This document shows positions 14,008-61,330 of a DNA stretch of 64,000 nucleotides, in pieces. The first letter of the stretch is position 1, and each line of letters opens with the position of its first letter. The notes beneath the pieces were generated by a model. It worked only from the letters and a program-made list of their open reading frames with translations, did no database searches and was not told the DNA's origin. Source of the DNA: Anaeromyxobacter soli (GTDB taxonomy: Bacteria > Myxococcota > Myxococcia > Myxococcales > Anaeromyxobacteraceae); assembly GCF_022808855.1 (NCBI RefSeq), contig NZ_JAKZLF010000020.1:1-64000 (forward strand). The letters run 5' to 3'. The translations under genes and the position numbers were made by a program.

Positions 14008-15546
14008 ATGGCAGCAGACATGAGCCTGCTCGCTCAGCAGCTCCGGCTCAGCGCGATGGAGGCGGAGGTGAGCCGCTTCCAGCGGTTCGCGAAGGACGCC
14101 CCCATCGGCATCCTCTTCATCAGCAAAGACGCCACCGTGCAGTTCGCGAACGACGAGTACCTGCGCATCGTCGGCCGAACGCGGGAAGAGTTCGAGGCCG
14201 AGCGGTTCCGGCTGGGGCCGGTGCGGCCGCCGGAGTGGCTGCACCCGGAGGTCGGCGCGCGACACGAGAGCGAGTGCGTGCGGGGCGACGGCACGCGGGT
14301 GCCGATCCTCGTCGGCCTCTCGATCCAGGAGGACGGCGTCGCTGCGTTCGTCATCGACCTCACCTCCGAGAAGTCGGCGGAGCGCGCGCGCCAGGAGAGC
14401 GAGGCGCGCTACCGCGCCATCGCCGAGCAGCTCGCGGAGGCCGATCGACGCAAGGACGAGTTCTTCGGGATCCTGTCCCACGAGCTCCGGAATCCGCTCG
14501 CGCCCATCCGGAACGCGCTCCACCTCCTCGCGCGCGCTCCGGACGACCCGGCACGCGCCGCGCGGGCGCGCGAGGTCATCGATCGCCAGATCGGGCACCT
14601 CTCGCGGCTCGTCGACGACCTCCTCGACCTCACCCGGATCACGCGCGGGAGCATCCAGCTCGTCAGAAAGCGGCTCGATCTCGCGCGCGTCGTCCGCGAC
14701 ACCGTCGAGGACCACCGCGCCGGGTTCGACGCCATCGGCGTCGCGCTGATCCTGCAGCTGCCGCCGGCGCCGCTCCACGTGGAGGGCGACGAGACCCGGC
14801 TCGCGCAGGTGGTGGGAAACCTGCTCGCCAACTCGGCGAAGTTCACGCCGCGCGGCGGCGCGGTCACGGTGCGGCTCGAGGAAGGGCCGGCGCGCGCCGC
14901 GCTCCTCGAGGTCCGCGACACGGGGGAGGGGATCGAGCCGGACGTCCTCCCGCGCATCTTCGAGCCGTTCTCGCAGGCGGACCGCAGCCTCGCGCGCTCC
15001 CGCGGCGGCCTCGGCCTCGGCCTCAGCCTCGTGAAGCGCCTCGTCGAGCTGCACGGCGGCACGGTGAGCGCGACGAGCGCCGGCCGGGGCGCCGGGACGG
15101 AGGTCGCGGTGCGCCTGCCGCTCCTCGATCCGCCCCTCGCGGCGGCGGAGGCGGCGGCGCCAAGTGCCCCGCCGCGCGTCGCGCACGTGCTCGTCGTCGA
15201 GGACAACGCGGACGCCGCGGAGACGTTGCGCGATGCGCTCGAGCTCGAGGGGATGGAGGTCACGCTCGCGTCCGACGGCGAGGCGGGGCTCGCGGCCGCC
15301 CGGAAAAGAGCGCCGGATCTCGTCATCTGCGACATCGGGCTGCCAGGGGACCTCGACGGCTACGGGGTCGCGCGCGCGATGCGGGCCGATCCCGGCCTGC
15401 GCAGGGTCCCGCTCGTCGCCCTGACGGGCTACGTGGGCCCCGAGGACCGGGCGCGGGCCCGGGAGGCCGGCTTCGACCTCCACCTGGGAAAGCCGACCCG
15501 GCTCGCCGACCTGCTCGGTGCGATCGGCCCGCTCCTTCCGGCGTGA
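14008..15546 (+). CDS. PAS hybrid sensor histidine kinase with C-terminal receiver domain
   Basis: 512 residues, cytoplasmic: no membrane segment. A PAS domain covers residues about 25-120 (APIGILFISKDATVQFAND). The dimerisation domain carries the phospho-acceptor His158 in GILSHELRNPLAP. The HATPase covers about 275-385 with N box (VVGNLLANSAKFTPRG), G1 (DTGEGIEP) and G2 (SRGGLGLGLSLVKRL). A receiver domain follows from about 392 (HVLVVEDNAD) with phospho-acceptor Asp in VICDIGLPG and Lys in LGKPTRL. The ATG at 14008 follows GGAGG. No response regulator or output gene is adjacent, so it is an orphan whose receiver may shuttle phosphate to a remote phosphotransfer protein. It diverges from the hypothetical gene before it and converges with the aminotransferase after it. 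Confidence 0.94.
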   Translation: MAADMSLLAQQLRLSAMEAEVSRFQRFAKDAPIGILFISKDATVQFANDEYLRIVGRTREEFEAERFRLGPVRPPEWLHPEVGARHESECVRGDGTRVPILVGLSIQEDGVAAFVIDLTSEKSAERARQESEARYRAIAEQLAEADRRKDEFFGILSHELRNPLAPIRNALHLLARAPDDPARAARAREVIDRQIGHLSRLVDDLLDLTRITRGSIQLVRKRLDLARVVRDTVEDHRAGFDAIGVALILQLPPAPLHVEGDETRLAQVVGNLLANSAKFTPRGGAVTVRLEEGPARAALLEVRDTGEGIEPDVLPRIFEPFSQADRSLARSRGGLGLGLSLVKRLVELHGGTVSATSAGRGAGTEVAVRLPLLDPPLAAAEAAAPSAPPRVAHVLVVEDNADAAETLRDALELEGMEVTLASDGEAGLAAARKRAPDLVICDIGLPGDLDGYGVARAMRADPGLRRVPLVALTGYVGPEDRARAREAGFDLHLGKPTRLADLLGAIGPLLPA

Positions 15547-50107: not shown

Positions 50108-50247
50108 CGCGGCGCGCCTTCGATCCCCGGGGCGTCGGCCGCGACACGAACCAGGGGGCTTGCTGTGGTTGACGCCGGGGCGGTCCTGAGCCGCTCACCC
50201 AGAGTCGCAGGTCCGGCGTGATCCCGACAAAGGTTGGTCTTTTCCGA

Positions 50248-51954
<1,707 letters not shown>

Positions 51955-51979
51955 TCGAGCTCCGGTGGCAGTCCAGAGC

Positions 51980-52015
51980 GGCGCGTCCTCGTGGACGCGC
52001 CGTTCTCTTTTTTTT
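51980..52015 (+). terminator. Intrinsic terminator of rpsA
   Basis: GGCGCGTCC at 51980-51988, loop TCGT, GGACGCGCC at 51993-52001, then GTTCTC and eight or more T. A 9-bp perfect stem with a U-tract, 25 bases after the rpsA stop. Confidence 0.92.
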
Positions 52016-52020
52016 CACCC

Positions 52021-53037
52021 CTACACCGCCTGCATGAGCAGGTAGGCGAGCGCGTCGAGCGGGAGGACCTCGTCCGTGAGGCCTCCCAGCACGGCCTCGC
52101 CGTTCATGCCGAAGATGACCGAGGACTCCTTGTCCTGGGCGACCACGGTGCCGCCCGCGGCGTGGAGGGTCGCGAGGCCCTTCACGCCGTCGTGGCCCAT
52201 GCCGGTGAGGATGAGCCCGAGCGCGGCGGGGCCGAACGAGCGCGCCACCGACTCGAACAGGTAGGTCCCGGAGGGCTTGAAGCCCTCGATCGGCGGCGCG
52301 TCGGAGAGCTCGATCCGGTCGCCCTTCACCCCGAGGTGGCGTCGATCCGGCGCGAGGTAGACCGTCCCGGGCGCGAGCGGCTCGCCGTCGTCGCCGACCT
52401 TCACGCGGAGCGGAGACGACTCGCCGAGCCACTTCGCGAGCCCCTCCGCGAAGCCCTCGGCGATGTGCTGCACGACGAGGAGCGGCGCGCGGAAGTCGGC
52501 CGGCAGCTCGGAGAGGATGCGCGACAGCGCGGGCGGACCGCCGGTCGACGCGGCGATGGCGACCACCCGCGCGCGCGTGCGCTGCGGGCGCGCCTCGGGC
52601 GCGGCCGCGCCGGGCCGCGGGGACTGGACGCGCGGCAGGAGGTTCACCCCGGCCATCGCGCGGGCCATGGTGAGGAGGTGCCGCGCCTGCGCGTCGAAGT
52701 CGGGATCGCCGGGCGCGGGGGGCTTCGGCACGACCGCGAGCGCGCCGGCCTTCATCGCGTTGAGCGCGAACCCGACGGAGTTCACGTCCTGCCCCGAGAC
52801 GACCACGATCGGCGTGGGGAGCTCGGTCATGATCCGGAGCGTCGCGTCGAAGCCGTTCATGACCGGCATCTCGATGTCCATCGTGACGAGGTCCGGCTTC
52901 AGCCGCCGGGTGAGCTCGACGGCCTCCTCGCCGTTCCGCGCCCGGCCGACGATCTCGAAGCCCGGCTCGAGCGCGAAGATCGCCTCGAGGAGCTTGAGCG
53001 ACGCCTCCATGTCGTCCGCCACCACCACCCGGATCAT
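52021..53037 (-). CDS. cheB: Chemotaxis-type protein-glutamate methylesterase CheB
   Basis: 338 residues. Receiver domain at 1-125 with phospho-acceptor Asp54 in LVTMDIEMPVMNG, then a linker and methylesterase domain. The catalytic Ser is in AIAASTGGPPAL, the His in VVQHIAEGFAEGLAKWL, and the Asp in LTGMGHDGVKGL. Removes methyl groups from the receptor encoded upstream. Last gene of the operon; the ATG overlaps the cheA stop (ATGA). It ends 6 bases after the rpsA terminator on the other strand. Confidence 0.96.
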   Translation of the reverse strand: MIRVVVADDMEASLKLLEAIFALEPGFEIVGRARNGEEAVELTRRLKPDLVTMDIEMPVMNGFDATLRIMTELPTPIVVVSGQDVNSVGFALNAMKAGALAVVPKPPAPGDPDFDAQARHLLTMARAMAGVNLLPRVQSPRPGAAAPEARPQRTRARVVAIAASTGGPPALSRILSELPADFRAPLLVVQHIAEGFAEGLAKWLGESSPLRVKVGDDGEPLAPGTVYLAPDRRHLGVKGDRIELSDAPPIEGFKPSGTYLFESVARSFGPAALGLILTGMGHDGVKGLATLHAAGGTVVAQDKESSVIFGMNGEAVLGGLTDEVLPLDALAYLLMQAV

Positions 53038-55370
53038 GGGACCTCCTCGAGCAGCTCCGAGAGCGTGTCCAGGAGCACGCGCTGGTCGAACGTCGACTTC
53101 ACGAGGTATGCGTCGGCGCCCGCCTCTAGGCCGCGCCGCCGGTCGGCGTCGCTCTCGAGGGCCGTCAGCAGCACGACCGGGACCCGGGCGAGCCGGGGGC
53201 TCTGCCGGATCGCCCGGGTCAGCTCGAAGCCGTTCATGCCGGGCATCTCCACGTCCGACACGACGACGTCGGCCACGTGCTGCCGGAGGAGCGACCAGGC
53301 CTGCTCTCCGTCGGCCGCCGTCGTCACGTCGTACCCGGAGGCCTCGAGGATGCTCCGCGCGAGGGCGCGAGTGGTGGCGGCGTCGTCCGCGAGGAGGACG
53401 CGGCGCCGCGCGGGCCCGGCCGCGCGGGCCGGCGCCGCCGCGAGCGCCGCGGCCGCGTGGGAGCGCTCCACGAGCTCCCGGCTCGCGAGGACCACGGCGA
53501 GCTCGCCACCCGGCAGCGCCGCGACCGCGCTCGCCAGGGGGAGCCCCGCGAGCCGCCCGCCGAGCGGCTCGAGCGACAGCTCTCGCTCCGCGAGCACCTC
53601 GTCGACCGCGAACGCGGCGCGCTGCCCGGCCACGCCCACCACCACGGCCATGCGCCGGTCCTCGGCGCGCCACGGCCCCGACGCGAGCCCCAGCGCGTGG
53701 GCGAGCGGCGCGATGGGCACCGGCTCGTCCGCGAGCAGCACGGTCCTCCCGCCGCTCGTCGCGAGGAGCTCGGGGCGCAGCCGGAGCACGCGCTCGACGT
53801 CCAGCGCCGGCACCGCGAAGCTCTGGCCGGCGTCGCGGGCGAGCAGCGCGCGCAGCCCGTAGAGCGTGGTGGGCACCGCGAGCTCGAAGCAGGTCCCCCG
53901 TCCGCGCGCCGACGTCACCGCGACCGAGCCGCGCATCGCGCGCACGGCGCTCGCGACGACGTCGAGGCCGACCCCGCGACCGGAGAGCTCCGTCACTGCG
54001 GTGGCGGTGGACAGCCCGGGCAGGAAGACGAGCTCGAGCGCCCGGCGGCGATCGGGGGGGACGGGCAGGCCGCGGCGGCGAGCCTCGTCGCGCAGCAGCT
54101 CCGGGTCCAGCCCCCGGCCGTCGTCGCGGACGCGCACGAACACCCGCTCGCCCTCGATGCGCGCGTCGACCTCGATGCGCCCGCGCTCCGGCTTCCCGCC
54201 GGCGCGCCGCTCCTCGGCGGGCTCGATGCCGTGGTCCACGGCGTTTCGCACGAGCTGGGCGAGCGGCTCGCGGAGCGCGTCGACCACCGAGCGGTCGAGC
54301 TCGAGCCCCTCTCCTCCGACCGCGAGCTCCACCTCGCGCCCGAGGGCGGCGGCTACGTCCCGCGCCGCGCGCTCGAGTCCGGCGGTCGCGTCCGCCCAGG
54401 GTCGGAGCCGCAGCGCGCGCACGTCGGAGGCGAGACGGCGCGTGCGCCGCTCGAGCGCGCGGGCCTCGACGGCGAGCTGGCCACGCAGCGCCGCGAGCCC
54501 GCGCTCGACCCGGCCGAGCTCGTCCTCGACGCCGAGGGCCGCGCGCGCCGCGGTGGCCTCCACGGCGGCGCGCCCGCGCTGGACGGCCGCCGCGCGCACC
54601 AGGATCGGCCGGACGGCGCGCAGGGCCCTGCGGAGCCTCCGCACCTCCCGGGCGAGCTCGTCCGCGCGCGTCGCGCGCGACTCGGCCTGGGTGGCGGAAT
54701 CGAGCAGCGCTCCGCCCGCGACCGCGATGGCGTCGAGTCGCTCGGGGGCGAGGCGCAGGGAGCCGGCCCGGCGCGGCCGAGCGGCGTCGGAGGGCGGGAG
54801 AGGCGCGGGAGCGGTCGTGGGTGGGGTGGAGGGCGGGGGCGACGGAGCCGGGGTCGAGGTCGCGGTCGGGGTCGAGGTCGCGGTCGGGGTCGGGGTCGGG
54901 GTCGCGGTCGGGGTCGGGGTCGGGGTCGAGGTCGGGGTCGCGATCGCGGCTGGGCTCGGCTCACCCTCCGTCCTCTCCCGCAGCAGCTCCCGCGCCCGGG
55001 CGAACGGGGCCTCCTCGATCTCCGTGAGCGGCGCCTCGGCGAGCCGCTTCTGGGCCTCGGCGAGCGCGTCCACCGCGGCGAGCAGCGCGGCAAAGTCCTC
55101 CGGCCCGAGCGGGCGCCCCTGGTCGCGCGCCGCGCCGAGCAGCGACTCCATCGCGTGGCAGGTCGCCTCGATCGGGCCCGCGCCGGCGGCGCGGGCGGAC
55201 CCCTTGAGCCCGTGCGCGGCGCGGAACACGTCGGCGAGGAGGGTGTCGCGCGGCGGCCCGGGCTCCGCCTTCTCCAGCGCGACGAGCCCCTCCTCGAGGA
55301 CGGGGACCTGCTCCGCGAGGTCGGTCGCGAGCGCGCCGCGCAACGACTCGAGCAGGGCGTCGCGGTCCAT
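53034..55370 (-). CDS. cheA: Hybrid CheA histidine kinase with C-terminal receiver (WspE-like)
   Basis: 778 residues. Hpt (P1) domain with His53 in FRAAHGLKGSARAAG. A Pro/Thr repeat linker at about 140-175 is encoded by the GGTCGN array. A helical dimerisation segment follows, then HATPase with LVRNAVDHGIEPAEER, DDGRGLDPELL and LSGRGVGLDVVASAV. A CheW-like P5 domain comes next, and a receiver from about residue 655 has Asp in VVVSDVEMPGMNG. No P2 domain for CheY/CheB is obvious. It phosphorylates its own receiver and CheB. Lies three bases before the mcp stop and overlaps cheB. Confidence 0.95.
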   Translation of the reverse strand: MDRDALLESLRGALATDLAEQVPVLEEGLVALEKAEPGPPRDTLLADVFRAAHGLKGSARAAGAGPIEATCHAMESLLGAARDQGRPLGPEDFAALLAAVDALAEAQKRLAEAPLTEIEEAPFARARELLRERTEGEPSPAAIATPTSTPTPTPTATPTPTPTATSTPTATSTPAPSPPPSTPPTTAPAPLPPSDAARPRRAGSLRLAPERLDAIAVAGGALLDSATQAESRATRADELAREVRRLRRALRAVRPILVRAAAVQRGRAAVEATAARAALGVEDELGRVERGLAALRGQLAVEARALERRTRRLASDVRALRLRPWADATAGLERAARDVAAALGREVELAVGGEGLELDRSVVDALREPLAQLVRNAVDHGIEPAEERRAGGKPERGRIEVDARIEGERVFVRVRDDGRGLDPELLRDEARRRGLPVPPDRRRALELVFLPGLSTATAVTELSGRGVGLDVVASAVRAMRGSVAVTSARGRGTCFELAVPTTLYGLRALLARDAGQSFAVPALDVERVLRLRPELLATSGGRTVLLADEPVPIAPLAHALGLASGPWRAEDRRMAVVVGVAGQRAAFAVDEVLAERELSLEPLGGRLAGLPLASAVAALPGGELAVVLASRELVERSHAAAALAAAPARAAGPARRRVLLADDAATTRALARSILEASGYDVTTAADGEQAWSLLRQHVADVVVSDVEMPGMNGFELTRAIRQSPRLARVPVVLLTALESDADRRRGLEAGADAYLVKSTFDQRVLLDTLSELLEEVP
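54852..54947. repeat. GGTCGN hexamer array inside cheA
   Basis: Fifteen consecutive GGTCGN units (54852-54941) plus a variant GATCGC. On the coding strand they give PT, ST and AT dipeptides in the linker after the Hpt domain. The frame is preserved whatever the copy number, since the unit is six bases. Confidence 0.9.
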
Positions 55371-55373
55371 GCG

Positions 55374-57008
55374 TCACCGCGACGTGGTGACGAGGAGCTG
55401 GCGGAGCCGCTCGCCGAGCGCGGTGAGATCGCGGACGGCGAGCTCCGACTGCTTCGTCGACGTGACGTACTGGCTCGCGACGTTGCTGATGTCGCGGACC
55501 GCCTGCGTGATCTGGCCGATCCCGGTCGCCTGCTGCGCGGTCGAGTCCGCGATCTCCTGGACCGCCCCCGAGAGCCGCGCGCCGAGCTCGGCGAGATCGC
55601 GGATCACGGCGCCCGCGTGCTGCGCGGCCCGCACCGCCGCCTCGAGGCTGCGCGTGCTCTCCTCGGTGGAGAGCACGGAGCGGTTCGCGCGCTTCTGCAC
55701 GTCCCCGAGCACCTGGCGCGCCTCCGCGGTCGCCCGCCGCGACTGCTCGGCGAGCGACTTCACCTCGGCGGCCACCACCGAGAACCCCTTGCCGTGCTCG
55801 CCCGCGCGCGTCGCCTCGATCGCCGCATTCAGCGCGAGCACGTTCGTCTGCTCCGCCAGGTCGTCGATGAGGCCGGTGATGTCGCCGACCGCGTTGGCCT
55901 GCTCCGCCAGCTCCAGGATGCTCCGCGCCACGCCGTCGGCCTGCTCCTTCGCGCGGCCGATCACGTCCACGGCCTCGTCCACCGCGCCGTGGCCCGTGCG
56001 AGACAGCTCGTCGGAGTGGCGCGCGATGTCGGCGGCCTCGCGGGCGCGGTCGGCCGCCCGCTCCGAGGAGCGCGCGACCTCGTCGAGGGAGGTCATCGTC
56101 TCCGAGACCGCCGCGAGCTGCTGCTGCGCGCCGGAGGTCTGCTGCGCCGTGCTGGAGAGGATCTCGTTCGCCGCGGTGGCGAGCCGCGCGGCGGTCTCGC
56201 CGACCGCGCGGAACATCTCCTCGAGCTTCGCGCGCGCGTCGCGCTCCAGCGCGAAGTTGCGGCGCAGCTTCTGGGTCATGTCCTCGAAGGCCCGGCCGAG
56301 GAGCGAGAGCTCGTCGCCGCCCCCCACCGCGATCGCCACGCCTTCCTCGCCCGCCGCCACGCGCTGCGCCGCGGAGGAGAGCGTCGCGATGCGCTGCGCC
56401 ACCCTCCGCGCCGCGAGCACGGTGGCGGCGACCCCGGCGAGGAGGAGCGCGAAGAGGAGGAACGCCCAGCGCTGGCGCGCCTCGACCGAGCCCGCGAGCT
56501 GCCCCTGCGCCGAGCGCATCCAGCGCTCGAGCTCGGAGGCGGCGTCGAGCGTCCTCCGATCCAGCGCGTCGAGCTCGCCGGGTGCGGCGGGGCCTCCCGA
56601 GGCGAGCCGCAGGAGGATGGGCCGGACCCCCTCGCGCCAGGCCCGCTCGGGCGCGTCGAGCGCGGCGAGCAGCCCGGGGTCGTCGAGGGCGTCCACCCCG
56701 GCGGCGCGGTCCCCGCGGCGGAGCGCCTCGAACCACCTGTCCAGCGCCTGGACGCGCTCCTCGATGCGGGAGCGCAGCGCGGGGGCGTCCTCGGCGCGCG
56801 CCGCGGCGCGGAGGTGGGCGAGGGCCACGAGCTGCGCGTAGTGCACCGTGCCGTTCGACATCTCGTGCAGGAGCGCGCCGTCGGACCCGACGCGCCGGAC
56901 GATCTGGACGCTGCTCCACAGGGCGAACGCGGCGAGGAGGAAGAGCACGAGGCCGAGGCCCGACAGCCGGAACGTGAGCGAGCGGTGGAAGGGCAGGTCG
57001 CGCGTCAC
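55374..57008 (-). CDS. Methyl-accepting chemotaxis protein (WspA-like)
   Basis: 544 residues. TM1 at about 15-33 ([17 protein letters not shown]), a helical periplasmic domain of about 135 residues with no Cache motif, and TM2 at about 171-190 ([20 protein letters not shown]). HAMP and a long coiled-coil signalling domain follow, with hairpin tip [19 protein letters not shown]. No C-terminal NWETF-type pentapeptide for CheR/CheB tethering. GTG at 57008 overlaps the cheW stop (GTGA); the frame is open upstream but is the wrong frame there. Confidence 0.94.
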
Positions 57009-57523
57009 GGGCCGTCGCCTCCGGGGCCCGGCGGCGCGTCGCCGAGGAGCGCGGCGCCGTCGAGGACCACCCGCGCCGCTCCCGTCGTGCCGAGCAGCGG
57101 CGGCGCCGCCTCGTGCAGCTCCGCGCGCGCGATGCGCAGGAGGTCGATCGCGTCCGCGGCGAGCGCGAGCTCCGGCGCGCGCCGGCCGAGCACGATCGCC
57201 CAGCGCCGGGGCGCCGCGGCGGCGCCGCCGCCGAGGAGCGCGGGGGCGTCCACGAGCGGGCAGGGACGCCCGTCCACGGACATGACGCCGACGACGTCGG
57301 CGGCCGCCCCCGGCACTCGCGCCACCGCGCCGACGCGCTCGACGCGCAGCACCGCGCCGAGGGTCACGGCGTAGCGCTCGGGCCCTGCCTCGAACGCCAC
57401 CACGTCGAGCCGCTCCCCTTCGGCCAGGGGAGGGGCAGGCGGCACCGCGAGGGCGCGGGCGCGCTCCGCGAGCACGCCGGCCGCGCGCCGCTCCTCGCCC
57501 TCCTCGGTTCGGTCCCGGGGCAC
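57005..57523 (-). CDS. cheW: CheW-like adaptor, second in operon (WspD-like)
   Basis: 172 residues. A 35-residue charged N-terminal extension precedes a CheW domain: [58 protein letters not shown]. Links the receptor tip to the CheA P5 domain. Its stop overlaps the mcp start. Less conserved than the first CheW of the operon (59384-58956). Confidence 0.85.
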
Positions 57524-57561
57524 GTGTCGACTCGCCTCCTCCCTCCACGTTCAACGTAGCG

Positions 57562-58959
57562 TCAGGGGAGCGGGGGGCCATCCCCCACGAGGCGCGACAG
57601 GTGGAACCGCGCCGCCTCGCGCAGCGCACCGGCGGTCATCCCATGCGACAGCGCCAGGGGCGTCCCGGGCGGCACCCGCGCCGCGAGCGCCGCCGCCGTC
57701 CGGAACGCACCGGCGGCGCCGCGGAGGTCGCCGCGGCGGAGGCGCAGGAGCGCGGTGAAGAAGTGGACGAACGGCTGCCCGCGGGCGAGGTACCGCGCGC
57801 GCCGGCACGCTTCCTCGGCGTCCTCGAGGCGGCCGAGCTCGGTCAGCACGACGGAGCGCTCGAAGTGCGCGTCCGGATCGAGCGGCCGCCGGCGGACGGC
57901 GTCGTCGACCGCGGCGAGCGCCTCCGGCAGGCGCGCGGCGTCGACGAGCAGGTGCGCGGCGGCGAGGTCGGGATCGGCGGGGAGCACCGCGGGTGGGAGG
58001 CCGGGCTCGGGCGGGGGCCGGCGAGGGCGCTCCGCGGCGGCCGTCCTCGCCGCGCGGGTCGGGGCCGTCCGGATCGCGCGGGCGGCGACCTCCGCGGGCG
58101 CCGCGCGGCGGCCCGCGGCGCGGAGGGCGGCCCGCGCGGTCGGGCGCTGGTACGCGACGCTGAACGGACCCGCTCGCACCGTGAACGGAGCGTGCGCCGC
58201 GAGCGGCGGGTCGGCGGCGCCCGTGAGCAGCCAGCCGCCCGGCGCGAGGGTCGCGAAGAGGCGCGTCGCGATCTCCGGCACGAGCGCGGGATCGAGGTAG
58301 ATGAGCACGTTCCGGCACAGGACCAGGTCGAGGTCCGCGAGCCCGCGCGCCCGCGACGGGTACTCGCCGCGCGCGAGGTTCAGGGGGAAGAACCGGACCC
58401 GCGCCGCGATCTCCCGCGGGAGCACGAACCGACCGTCGATCTCCCGCAGGTGTCGGCGCGCCCGGGCGTCCGCGGCCCCGCGCAGCGACCAGAGGGAGTA
58501 CTCGCCTCGCCGCGCGCGCGCGAGCGCGGACTCGTTCAGGTCGGTTCCGACGAGGTGGACGCCGTGCCGCACGCCGCGATCGTGCAGCGCGATCGCGAGC
58601 GAGTACGGCTCCTCGCCCGTCGAGCACCCCGCGCTCCACGCCCGGAACGCCTCGGGGCCGCCCGCCCTGCGGGCGAGCCCCTCCGGAACGATCACCTGCT
58701 CGATGAGCGCCCACTGCGCCGGCTCGCGGAAGAACCAGGTCTCCCCCACCGTGAGCTCCTCGATGAACGGCTCGAGCGGCCGCGAGCCGTCGACCACGCT
58801 CCGCGCGAACGCCTCGCCGTCGGGCAAGCCGGCGGCGTGCGCCTCGCGCACGAGCGCCGCCGCGAGGAGCGTCGCCCGCACTCCGGTGAGGTCGAGGCCC
58901 GCGCGCTCCCGGACGAGGGCGCGCAGGCGATCCGACGCCGCGGGCGGGGAGGGGCTCAT
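57562..58959 (-). CDS. cheR: CheR methyltransferase with C-terminal TPR domain (WspC-like)
   Basis: 465 residues. Residues about 1-275 are a SAM-dependent CheR: helical N domain, [16 protein letters not shown], the SAM motif [38 protein letters not shown] and [14 protein letters not shown] Pro/Ala-rich linker leads to TPRs at about 345-440 ([20 protein letters not shown]). This CheR-TPR fusion is the form in Wsp systems. The ATG at 58959 overlaps the stop of the first cheW; 38 bases separate it from the second cheW. Confidence 0.94.
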
Positions 58960-59384
58960 CGCGCCGCCGGCTCGACCCCGCGGAGCCACTCCTCGAGCGC
59001 CTGGATCACGACCGTGCCCTGCGGGAGCCGCACCAGGCCGGCGGCGAGCGGGTCGGGCGCGATCCACTCGGGGTAGGGCGAGACCGCCGCGTCCGGCACC
59101 TCGCGGATCTCGAGCACCCGCTCGACCTCGAGCGCCACGCGGCGGCCGGCGATCTCGACCACGAGCAGCTGATCCTCCGCGCGCGGGGGCCGGACCTGCG
59201 CGCCGAGCCGCGCCGCCACGTCCACCACGGGTACGAGCATGCCGTGCACGTCGAGCACGCCCCGCACGTGCGGCGGGGCGCCCGGGACCGGCGTGGGCGC
59301 GGCCATTCGGAGCACCTGCAGCGCGCAGGTCGCGGGCAGTGCGAAGGTTTGGGAGGCTGCGGTGAACAGGACGAAGGACGCCAT
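58956..59384 (-). CDS. cheW: CheW-like adaptor, first in operon (WspB-like)
   Basis: 142 residues, one CheW domain: FVLFTAASQTFALPATCALQ, PHVRGVLDVHGMLVPVVDVA, QLLVVEIAGRRVALEVERVL, and a conserved end QALEEWLRG. First gene of the six-gene minus-strand operon, so the promoter should lie in 59385-59539. I see no convincing hexamers there. The frame extends upstream to 59444, but MASFVLF is the natural start. Confidence 0.9.
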   Translation of the reverse strand: MASFVLFTAASQTFALPATCALQVLRMAAPTPVPGAPPHVRGVLDVHGMLVPVVDVAARLGAQVRPPRAEDQLLVVEIAGRRVALEVERVLEIREVPDAAVSPYPEWIAPDPLAAGLVRLPQGTVVIQALEEWLRGVEPAAR

Positions 59385-59539: not shown

Positions 59540-61330
59540 ATGACCCTCTCCATCGGGATCGTCCTCGCCGTCCTCGCCGTCGCCGTGGTGCTGTTCGCGC
59601 TCGAGCGCATCCCGCTCGAGGTGAGCGCCCTCACGGTCGTGGCCCTCCTCGCCGTGACCCGCGTCCTCACGCCGGAGCAGGCCTTCGCGGGGTTCGCGAA
59701 CGAGACCGTCATCCTCATCTTCACGCTCCTCTCGATGACGCAGGGGCTGGTCTCGACGGGGGTCGTGCAGGCCATCGGGCAGCGCATGTCGGGCGCGGGC
59801 CGCTTCGGGCCGACGGTGTTCGTGGGCGCGATGATGGTCGTCGTGGCCGCGCTCTCGTCGCTCGTCTCGAACACCGTCACCACCGCGGCGTTCCTGCCCG
59901 TCGTCATCGGCGCGGCCGACCGGGCGAAGCTCGCGCGGAGCCGCGTGCTCATGCCGCTCGCCTACGCCTCCATGCTGGGCGGCACGATCTTCCTCATCGG
60001 CACGTCCACGAACCTCGTGGTGAGCGCCATGATGGCGAGGACGGGCCTCGGGGCCATCGGGTTCACCGAGCTCGCGCCGGTGGGCCTGCCGCTCGCGGTC
60101 GTCGGGATCGCCCTCGTGCTCCTCCTCGCGCCCTTCCTGCTGCCCGAGCGCAGCGGGGAGGAGGACGAGGCGATGCCGGCGCGCGAGTACCTCGCCGAGG
60201 TGGCGGTCGTGGCGGGCTCGCCCTTCGCGGGGAGGCGGCTCGAGGAGCTCACGCACGGGCTCGGGTTCAGGGTGCTCGCGGTCACGCGCGGCGGCGCGGC
60301 GCTCGAGGCATCCCCGGAGCTCGTCCTCGCCGAGGGCGACGCGCTCCTGCTCGAGGAGGATCGGCTCGACCTCCTGCGCGTGAAGGACCTGCGAGGCCTG
60401 GAGATGCGCGCCGAGGCGAAGGCGCGGGCGGGCGAGGGCGAGGACGTCGTGCTCATGGAGGCGGCGGTGCCGGTCGGCTCGAGCCTCGTCGGCCGCTCGC
60501 TCAAGGAGGCGTTCTTCGCCGAGCACTTCGGCCTCGTCGCGCTCGCGATCGCGCGGCGTCCCGCGATCCAGCGGCTCACCCGCGTGCAGCTCCTGCACGG
60601 GCTCTTCGGCGCGCACTCGCTGTCGACGCTGCCGCTCGCGGCGGGCGACGTGCTCCTCGTGCGCGGCCCGCGCCCGCGCGTCCGCGCGCTCGCGGACGGG
60701 ACCACGCTCACGCTGCTCGGCAGCGTCGAGTACCAGCCGGTGCGCTACCGCAAGGCGCTGTTCGCCGTGGCGATCTTCGTCGCCGTCCTCGCGGTCGGCC
60801 TCCTGAAGCTCGTCCCGCTCTCGGTGGCCGGGCTGTGCGGCATGCTCCTCATGATCGCCACGCGCTGCGTGGACGCGCGCATGGCGTTCCGGGTCGACTG
60901 GCGGGTGGTGCTCCTCATCGGCGCGATGATGGCGCTCGGGACCGCCATGGAGGTGAGCGGCGCAGGGCGCTGGCTCGGCTCGCTCCTCGTCCCCCTCGCC
61001 GGCCACGTGGGCGCGCGCGGCGTGCTCGTGGCGCTCATGATCTTCACCATCGTGCTCTCCGCGCCCATGTCGAACCAGGCCGCGGCCCTGGTGCTGCTGC
61101 CGGTCGCGACCGGGGTCGCCGCGCAGCTCGGCCTCGCGCCGCGGCCGTTCGCGATCGGGATCTGCCTCGCGGCCTCGTTCTCCTTCATCACGCCGCTCGA
61201 GCCGTCCTGCGTGCTCGTGTACGGACCGGGGAGGTACCGCTTCCTGGACTTCGTGCGGATGGGCGCGCCGCTCACCGCCGCGCTCCTCGTCCTGCTCGCG
61301 ATCCTCGTGCCGGTGGTCTGGAGGTTCTGA
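59540..61330 (+). CDS. SLC13-type permease with two central TrkA-C domains
   Basis: 596 residues. An N-terminal block of membrane helices includes MTLSIGIVLAVLAVAVVLFA and the loop SLVSNTVTTAAFLPVV. Two TrkA-C (RCK-C) domains cover about residues 205-375 (EVAVVAGSPFAGRRLEEL and AVPVGSSLVGRSLKEAFF). The second membrane block ends in a SAPMSNQAAALVLLPVA hairpin. This layout is that of the DASS/CitMHS-like permeases with RCK-C domains, which move anions such as sulfate or dicarboxylates. Substrate unknown. GGAGGAGG is placed well before the ATG. Divergent from the che operon. Confidence 0.9.
   Translation: MTLSIGIVLAVLAVAVVLFALERIPLEVSALTVVALLAVTRVLTPEQAFAGFANETVILIFTLLSMTQGLVSTGVVQAIGQRMSGAGRFGPTVFVGAMMVVVAALSSLVSNTVTTAAFLPVVIGAADRAKLARSRVLMPLAYASMLGGTIFLIGTSTNLVVSAMMARTGLGAIGFTELAPVGLPLAVVGIALVLLLAPFLLPERSGEEDEAMPAREYLAEVAVVAGSPFAGRRLEELTHGLGFRVLAVTRGGAALEASPELVLAEGDALLLEEDRLDLLRVKDLRGLEMRAEAKARAGEGEDVVLMEAAVPVGSSLVGRSLKEAFFAEHFGLVALAIARRPAIQRLTRVQLLHGLFGAHSLSTLPLAAGDVLLVRGPRPRVRALADGTTLTLLGSVEYQPVRYRKALFAVAIFVAVLAVGLLKLVPLSVAGLCGMLLMIATRCVDARMAFRVDWRVVLLIGAMMALGTAMEVSGAGRWLGSLLVPLAGHVGARGVLVALMIFTIVLSAPMSNQAAALVLLPVATGVAAQLGLAPRPFAIGICLAASFSFITPLEPSCVLVYGPGRYRFLDFVRMGAPLTAALLVLLAILVPVVWRF

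Follow-up and report, generated by a model that had tools for sequence, protein, structure and literature searches.

A Chemosensory Operon with Che6 Gene Order and No Linked Output Gene in Anaeromyxobacter soli

Several described chemosensory systems bear on a six-gene operon located in a 64-kb stretch of Anaeromyxobacter soli DNA (contig NZ_JAKZLF010000020.1; 74.6% G+C), hereafter called the window. In Wsp systems, the genes run mcp-cheW-cheR-cheW-cheA-cheB, and these systems are described as reported only from beta- and gammaproteobacteria (PMC8552884). A Wsp system without WspR is described for Burkholderia cenocepacia, in which mutants left cyclic di-GMP (c-di-GMP) unchanged (PMC8552884, PMC4324302). 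Thus, c-di-GMP is not a necessary end point even for a genuine Wsp core. The Che6 cluster of Myxococcus xanthus is tabulated as MXAN_6947 (CheW6a), 6948 (CheR6-TPR), 6949 (CheW6b), 6950 (Mcp6), 6951 (CheA6-REC, where REC denotes a receiver domain), and 6952 (CheB6), and that table lists no CheY (PMC3945109). The same source suggests that CheA4, CheA5, and CheA6 form one module, which would allow an output to be shared between clusters, and notes that what exactly Che4, Che5, and Che6 do cannot be read from its data; elsewhere, Che6 is described as seemingly implicated in PilA assembly (PMC9548883). On plasmid pSymA of Sinorhizobium meliloti, a cluster of cheR, cheB, cheW, mcpS, and cheA-REC is reviewed as belonging to the alternative cellular functions (ACF) class; its receptor is of the 40H type, and it lacks cheY (PMC8429497). 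Closer to the present genome, Anaeromyxobacter dehalogenans 2CP-C is reported to carry seven chemotaxis clusters, of which four share synteny with M. xanthus frz, dif, che6, and che8 (PMC2330069).

We conclude that the A. soli operon is probably a chemosensory operon of the ACF type that follows the Che6 gene order; its input and adaptation parts are all present, and no output gene is linked to them. The kind of cluster is already known; what this lineage lacks is the linked output. It is this absence, unlike the situation in its relatives, that makes the cluster unusual. The comparison also corrects a tempting misreading, because the wsp parts list placed in another order is a layout found in many phyla.

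Gene content and order relative to Wsp and Che6

The operon lies on the minus strand at positions 52021-59384 and consists of cheW1, cheR-TPR, cheW2, mcp, cheA-REC, and cheB. An earlier sequence-only reading had proposed these six genes, in this order and with this extent, and both the coordinates and Pfam agree, as every protein exceeds the curated cut-offs for its families. The first gene, cheW1 (58956..59384; CheW, 88.8 bits), starts with ATG and overlaps cheR by 4 bases. It is followed by a receptor methyltransferase gene with a C-terminal TPR region (57562..58959; CheR and TPR_16, the latter at 39 bits versus a cut-off of 32.7) and by cheW2, which encodes a divergent coupling protein (57005..57523; CheW, 48.8 bits). 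The mcp gene (55374..57008) encodes a membrane receptor with an N-terminal sensor, a HAMP domain, and a signaling domain (MCPsignal). Its sensor is weakly PilJ-like (E 0.001; 19.6 bits, below the cut-off of 26.6).

The cheA-REC gene (53034..55370) encodes a hybrid kinase with Hpt, a TP-rich linker, HATPase_c, CheW-like, and Response_reg regions. Fifteen copies of a 6-bp tandem repeat (54849..54940, minus strand, found with TRF) code for the linker, and the ortholog in a second genome of the genus (G007) has a CheA linker without this repeat. The last gene, cheB (52021..53037), encodes a receiver and a methylesterase (Response_reg and CheB_methylest). Adjacent genes either overlap by 4 bases or are separated by 3 or 38 bases, and all six reading frames are open. 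Receivers inside the cluster are confined to CheA-REC and CheB, and Pfam revealed no multidomain response regulator there.

Other collections gave general assignments. CheB scored 307 bits against NCBIfam NF001965 (cut-off 293), and among the matches listed this general CheB model alone exceeded its cut-off, with nothing system-specific. A PDB sequence search returned general CheA, CheB, CheR, CheY, and other receiver chains (for CheA, the best 60 of 114), and the three rows examined from phage records were partial matches to methyl-accepting chemotaxis proteins (MCPs).

The sequence-only reading had described the operon as Wsp-like. Its parts list survives, since an MCP, two CheW proteins, CheR-TPR, CheA-REC, and CheB are the same six protein kinds, by Pfam, as WspA to WspF in the WspR and WspH systems of Pseudomonas and Burkholderia. 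The Wsp identity is not supported. Wsp operons begin with the receptor gene and have either a gene for a REC-GGDEF protein as the last gene or a gene for a REC protein upstream, whereas the window operon has the order B-C-D-A-E-F, and neither the window nor the 16 kb that follow it on the contig contain a linked WspR or WspH gene. For reference, seven matches were fetched from a plasmid collection, and five (L176, L177, L178, L181, and L182, from Burkholderia, Cupriavidus, and Variovorax) serve as Wsp clusters. Because these records are unannotated at the loci and were labeled by their fit to the published synteny (PMC8552884), their receptor-first order is a criterion rather than an independent finding. 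Three of them (L177, L178, and L182) have a REC-GGDEF gene behind cheB, and two (L176 and L181) have an upstream REC gene in the wspH place. The remaining two matches, Sinorhizobium L179 and L180, lack the Wsp order.

In contrast, the gene order of the window operon is that of M. xanthus Che6, and the two clusters share CheR-TPR, CheA-REC, and, as far as the published table goes, the lack of a CheY (PMC3945109). We call the operon Che6 type rather than an ortholog because it was compared with M. xanthus by gene order and not by sequence. The M. xanthus Frz system likewise has a CheA-REC hybrid, a TPR-bearing CheR, and two CheW proteins (PMC3945109), but it differs in gene order and has a separate output, FrzZ; moreover, A. 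soli has its own frz-like cluster on another contig (C17, L114).

Phylogenetic placement

All trees were quick estimates supported only by the Shimodaira-Hasegawa-like approximate likelihood ratio test (SH-aLRT), and many rows had unusual composition. In a CheA tree of 85 rows that included no Wsp sequences, the window operon and its ortholog (L162, from G007) fell in a set of 14 with 98% support, whose members all come from the source genome or other genomes of its taxonomic order. A combined CheA and CheB tree (89 rows, 506 columns) placed the window operon in a 99% set of eight with L162, three operons of the genus (L163-L165), a cluster from the same taxonomic order (L167), and the two Sinorhizobium clusters, while the five Wsp clusters formed a separate 100% set. 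Forcing the window operon, L162, and the Wsp clusters together cost 29.4 log units, and this grouping was not rejected by the approximately unbiased (AU) test (p-AU 0.164). A seven-domain tree of 1262 columns, built from 41 rows picked by the analyst from the clusters at hand, recovered the same set of eight with 100% SH-aLRT support. Here the forced grouping cost 84.5 log units and was rejected (p-AU 0.00125). The window operon and L162 are 87% identical across 1240 conserved columns.

Several features suggest the class to which the operon belongs. CheR-TPR is one proposed indicator of an ACF pathway (PMC3447774), and the TPR_16 match places such a protein in the cluster. The locus L180 is located on pSymA of S. 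meliloti 1021, and from its plasmid and gene content we infer that it is the reviewed McpS cluster. It falls within the 100% set, shares CheA-REC and the lack of cheY with the window operon, and has a receptor whose signaling part aligns with that of the window receptor without gaps. If the L180 receptor is taken as McpS, this alignment makes the window receptor 40H, a length class that is not exclusive to ACF systems. L180 differs in having an upstream REC-LuxR gene and a PAS-GGDEF-EAL gene, and one CheW was detected there. The sequence-only reading had named placement in a flagellar or type IV pili (Tfp) class as the outcome that would overturn it, but the cluster looks ACF-like, not flagellar or Tfp.

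Linked output genes and possible routes of signaling

Custom hidden Markov models (HMMs), built from domains of the window and its own genome, detected no further CheW, CheA, CheB, CheR, MCP, or GGDEF gene in the window and gave no matches in the 16 kb of contig that follow it (L131). The earlier observation that no GGDEF output adjoins the operon therefore stands. Because of how these models were derived, output domains of other kinds would escape them.

The same order, cheW-cheR-cheW-mcp-cheA-cheB, was sought in 97 sources, namely the window, the best 80 of 388 relatives from a CheB scan of named genomes, and 16 other fetched clusters. It was found exactly in 22 of them: the window, L162, 14 of the 80, and L117, L167, L168, L171, L172, and L194. 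Only the window operon and its ortholog have no gene for a receiver, HATPase, or GGDEF domain in the 5 kb to each side or in the available flank, which in some cases was shorter (4.6 kb upstream of the window operon and 3.3 kb downstream of L162). Each of the other 20 has such a gene nearby. A gene encoding REC and HATPase lies on the same strand in 12 of the 20, and L058 has a HATPase-REC gene on the opposite strand. A GGDEF gene of any sort occurs in four, with a REC-GGDEF fusion in two (L047 and L052). These 20 clusters are not independent, as L117, L171, L172, and L194 form one family and L036 and L039 another. In this sample, clusters with the layout have a REC-kinase as their linked output more often than they have a diguanylate cyclase.

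A CheR search of 25 genomes, including the source, gave a close match only in G007 (75% identity), with weaker matches in G002, G004, G005, and G006 (44-48%) and in G018 (39%). The window type of operon is present in two of nine genus genomes. Receptor residues 1-200 were matched in seven of 145 genomes of the order: the source and G007 (68%), G002, G004, G005, and G006 (27-37%), and G017 (26%). In G007, the operon has the same transporter and rpsA-like neighbors as in the window. Two small open reading frames (ORFs) lie between its cheB and the rpsA-like gene, one with no family and the other with a Peptidase_M28 match below the cut-off.

Five of the nine genomes carry instead a sister operon, and the two types are mutually exclusive in this sample; G003 and G008 (66% complete) have neither. 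The sister operons (L163-L165, and in part L166 and L210) share the cheR-cheW-mcp-cheA-cheB block with the window operon, and L163-L165 are, along with L167, its closest clusters in the tree beside the ortholog. The first cheW was not detected in L163-L166 with the custom HMM, and a GAF-HisKA-HATPase gene that the window operon lacks lies behind cheB (by Pfam in L163 and L165 and by a HATPase match in L164 and L210; L166 ends short of this position). In G002, G005, and G006, the sister operon with this kinase gene behind cheB sits beside genes that we read as V-type ATPase genes. G001 (L210) has cheA, cheB, and the histidine kinase gene on a contig cut within cheA, and in G004 the kinase is located on a different contig. 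Matches to this GAF kinase reach 70-100% in G001, G002, G004, G005, and G006, while the best in the source, G003, G007, and G008 are 39-42%.

These comparisons do not support the earlier statement that the operon has lost a diguanylate cyclase. Given the REC-HATPase genes in 12 of 20 same-order clusters, the REC-GGDEF fusions in two of 20, and the GAF kinases of the sister operons, the expected output is not a diguanylate cyclase. A natural variant that lacks an output, from a genus in which the other species have kept theirs as a linked kinase, is also well suited to tracing the destination of Che6-type signals.

We propose that the N-terminal domain of the receptor senses a signal and that the receptor would control CheA through the two CheW proteins. 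CheA would pass phosphate to CheB and to its own receiver, the latter mainly serving as a sink, and CheB and CheR-TPR would jointly set receptor methylation. A kinase or response regulator encoded at another locus would then mediate the cell response, which would probably be of a surface, pilus, or exopolysaccharide (EPS) type rather than swimming. The sequence-only reading had offered two candidates for the output, the CheA receiver and a distant regulator. Because the FrzE receiver is described as a phosphate sink that inhibits signaling (PMC4546325), a distant response regulator, with the CheA receiver acting by analogy as a sink, appears to be the likeliest output.

A contrary proposal exists for the cheY-less pSymA system, in which CheA-REC is suggested to regulate effectors (PMC8429497). 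By extension, the phosphorylated CheA receiver of A. soli might itself be the output and act directly on an effector. This receiver matches Response_reg at 94 bits and, as read by eye, keeps the usual acidic, Thr, and Lys positions. However, CheA-REC is common to relatives that also carry separate receiver genes nearby, and the inhibitory role of the FrzE receiver also speaks against a direct output, so we regard this route as doubtful. It is quite unlikely, in our judgment, that the operon is genuinely Wsp, with its WspR relocated to another part of the genome and signaling that leads to c-di-GMP synthesis by a REC-GGDEF protein encoded far away. The parts list, the precedent of B. cenocepacia, and the CheA and CheB alignment, which tolerates the Wsp grouping, are consistent with it, and the genome has 11 GGDEF matches, including proteins with REC and GGDEF on contigs C41, C56, and C59 (Pfam) and C30 and C1 (custom HMMs). 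Yet both the gene order and the larger alignment separate the operon from Wsp, and a search of the genus for a dedicated distant partner turned up none that tracks the operon. The C56 type is matched at 67-100% in nine of nine genomes and adjoins its own REC-histidine kinase gene, and a second full-length REC-GGDEF match (42-45%), presumably of the C59 type, occurs in eight of nine. Both candidates are thus spread across the genus regardless of the operon, the C41, C30, and C1 proteins being outside that search.

The distribution of the GAF kinase could also mean that the operon is a relic that lost the output retained by the sister operons and now signals nothing. We consider this very unlikely, since the six frames in the window and the domain-bearing frames of L162 are open and the two operons have kept the identity reported above over their conserved columns. 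Relocation of the sister-operon kinase in A. soli was rejected as well, because the best match (42%) is similar to paralogs in other species.

Another possibility is a split pathway. A second A. soli cluster (contig C9, L118:6671-13010) carries cheW, cheR, cheY, cheW, cheA-REC, and cheB but no receptor gene, and there is no MCP match on that contig. Its counterpart in G007 (L191) has the same make-up. That two genomes each have both an output-less and a receptor-less cluster makes a shared pathway conceivable, as suggested for Che4, Che5, and Che6, in which the operon receptor might drive the C9 CheY through one shared array, as a fixed version of that M. xanthus cross-talk. We judge this arrangement improbable. 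G003 (L192) has the same receptor-less start, on a contig that ends in cheA, and so appears to hold the C9 type without the studied operon, and 13 other MCP matches in the A. soli genome could serve C9. The Hpt domain of the operon CheA is 42-45% identical to those of L163, L165, and L167 and 36% identical to that of C9, and thus sequence gives the split pathway no support. In G016 and G018, similarly ordered clusters (L169 and L174) do carry a receptor.

Some observations weigh against our interpretation of the operon as an ACF, Che6-type pathway with a distant output. A multidomain response regulator is described as a "frequent feature" of ACF clusters (PMC3447774), frequent rather than universal, and this cluster has none. 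The link to Che6 comes from gene order and from L167 rather than from M. xanthus sequences. L167, from a 9.0-Mb genome, has the same six-gene order with a PAS-GAF-histidine kinase gene behind cheB, and its receptor has a CHASE3 sensor, as Mcp6 is described to have (PMC3945109); CHASE3 was not detected in the window receptor in Pfam scans. Moreover, the 506-column alignment did not reject a grouping with Wsp, our analysis named no output protein for the operon, and the pathway could be degenerate.

Genomic surroundings and other chemosensory clusters

Downstream of the operon, a terminator-like hairpin of a convergent gene (51975..52006, plus strand; a 14-pair stem with a T-run) abuts the operon, 14 bases from the end of cheB. 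This fits the earlier description of an operon that runs into the rpsA terminator, with the gene at 50218-51954 tentatively read as rpsA. On the other side, a gene for a CitMHS/TrkA_C transporter (59540-61330) is divergent from the operon. The absence of a nearby CheY or flagellar gene, also noted earlier, was borne out. The sole other receiver found in the window belongs to a HisKA-HATPase-REC hybrid kinase at 14008-15546, and no flagellar domain occurs in the 27 of 40 other ORFs scanned with Pfam.

The 5.3-Mb source genome (G000; 80 contigs) has 21 CheW-domain matches and 14 MCP matches. In addition to the studied operon (C13), che clusters are present on C17 (the frz-like cluster and a second), C9, C21, C23, C6/C11, and C41, with C6/C11 apparently one dif-like cluster split by contig ends. 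The C23 cluster (L117:1699-10973) is a second one with the Che6 order and is followed immediately by a REC-REC-REC-PAS-histidine kinase gene, whose domain order recurs in L171, L172, and L194. At a contig end, the C41 locus (L120:5361-8027) pairs a REC-GGDEF gene with a divergently oriented double-CheW gene and a receiver; of the 11 GGDEF loci fetched from this genome (L120-L130), no other is adjoined by a CheW gene.

Same-order clusters from other sources show further arrangements. L036 and L039, named as archaeal (Candidatus Methanoperedens), have the six-gene order and REC-kinase genes within an otherwise bacterial tree group, which suggests inter-domain transfer, with mis-binning possible for these two metagenome-assembled contigs. 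In L168 (G022), the same order includes a receptor that appears by eye to bear PAS and is followed by a gene for a Ser/Thr kinase and a receiver (Pfam). Finally, in an uncultured Myxococcales bacterium, a gene upstream of the same-order cluster (L058:2172-3503) fuses REC to a class III nucleotide cyclase domain.

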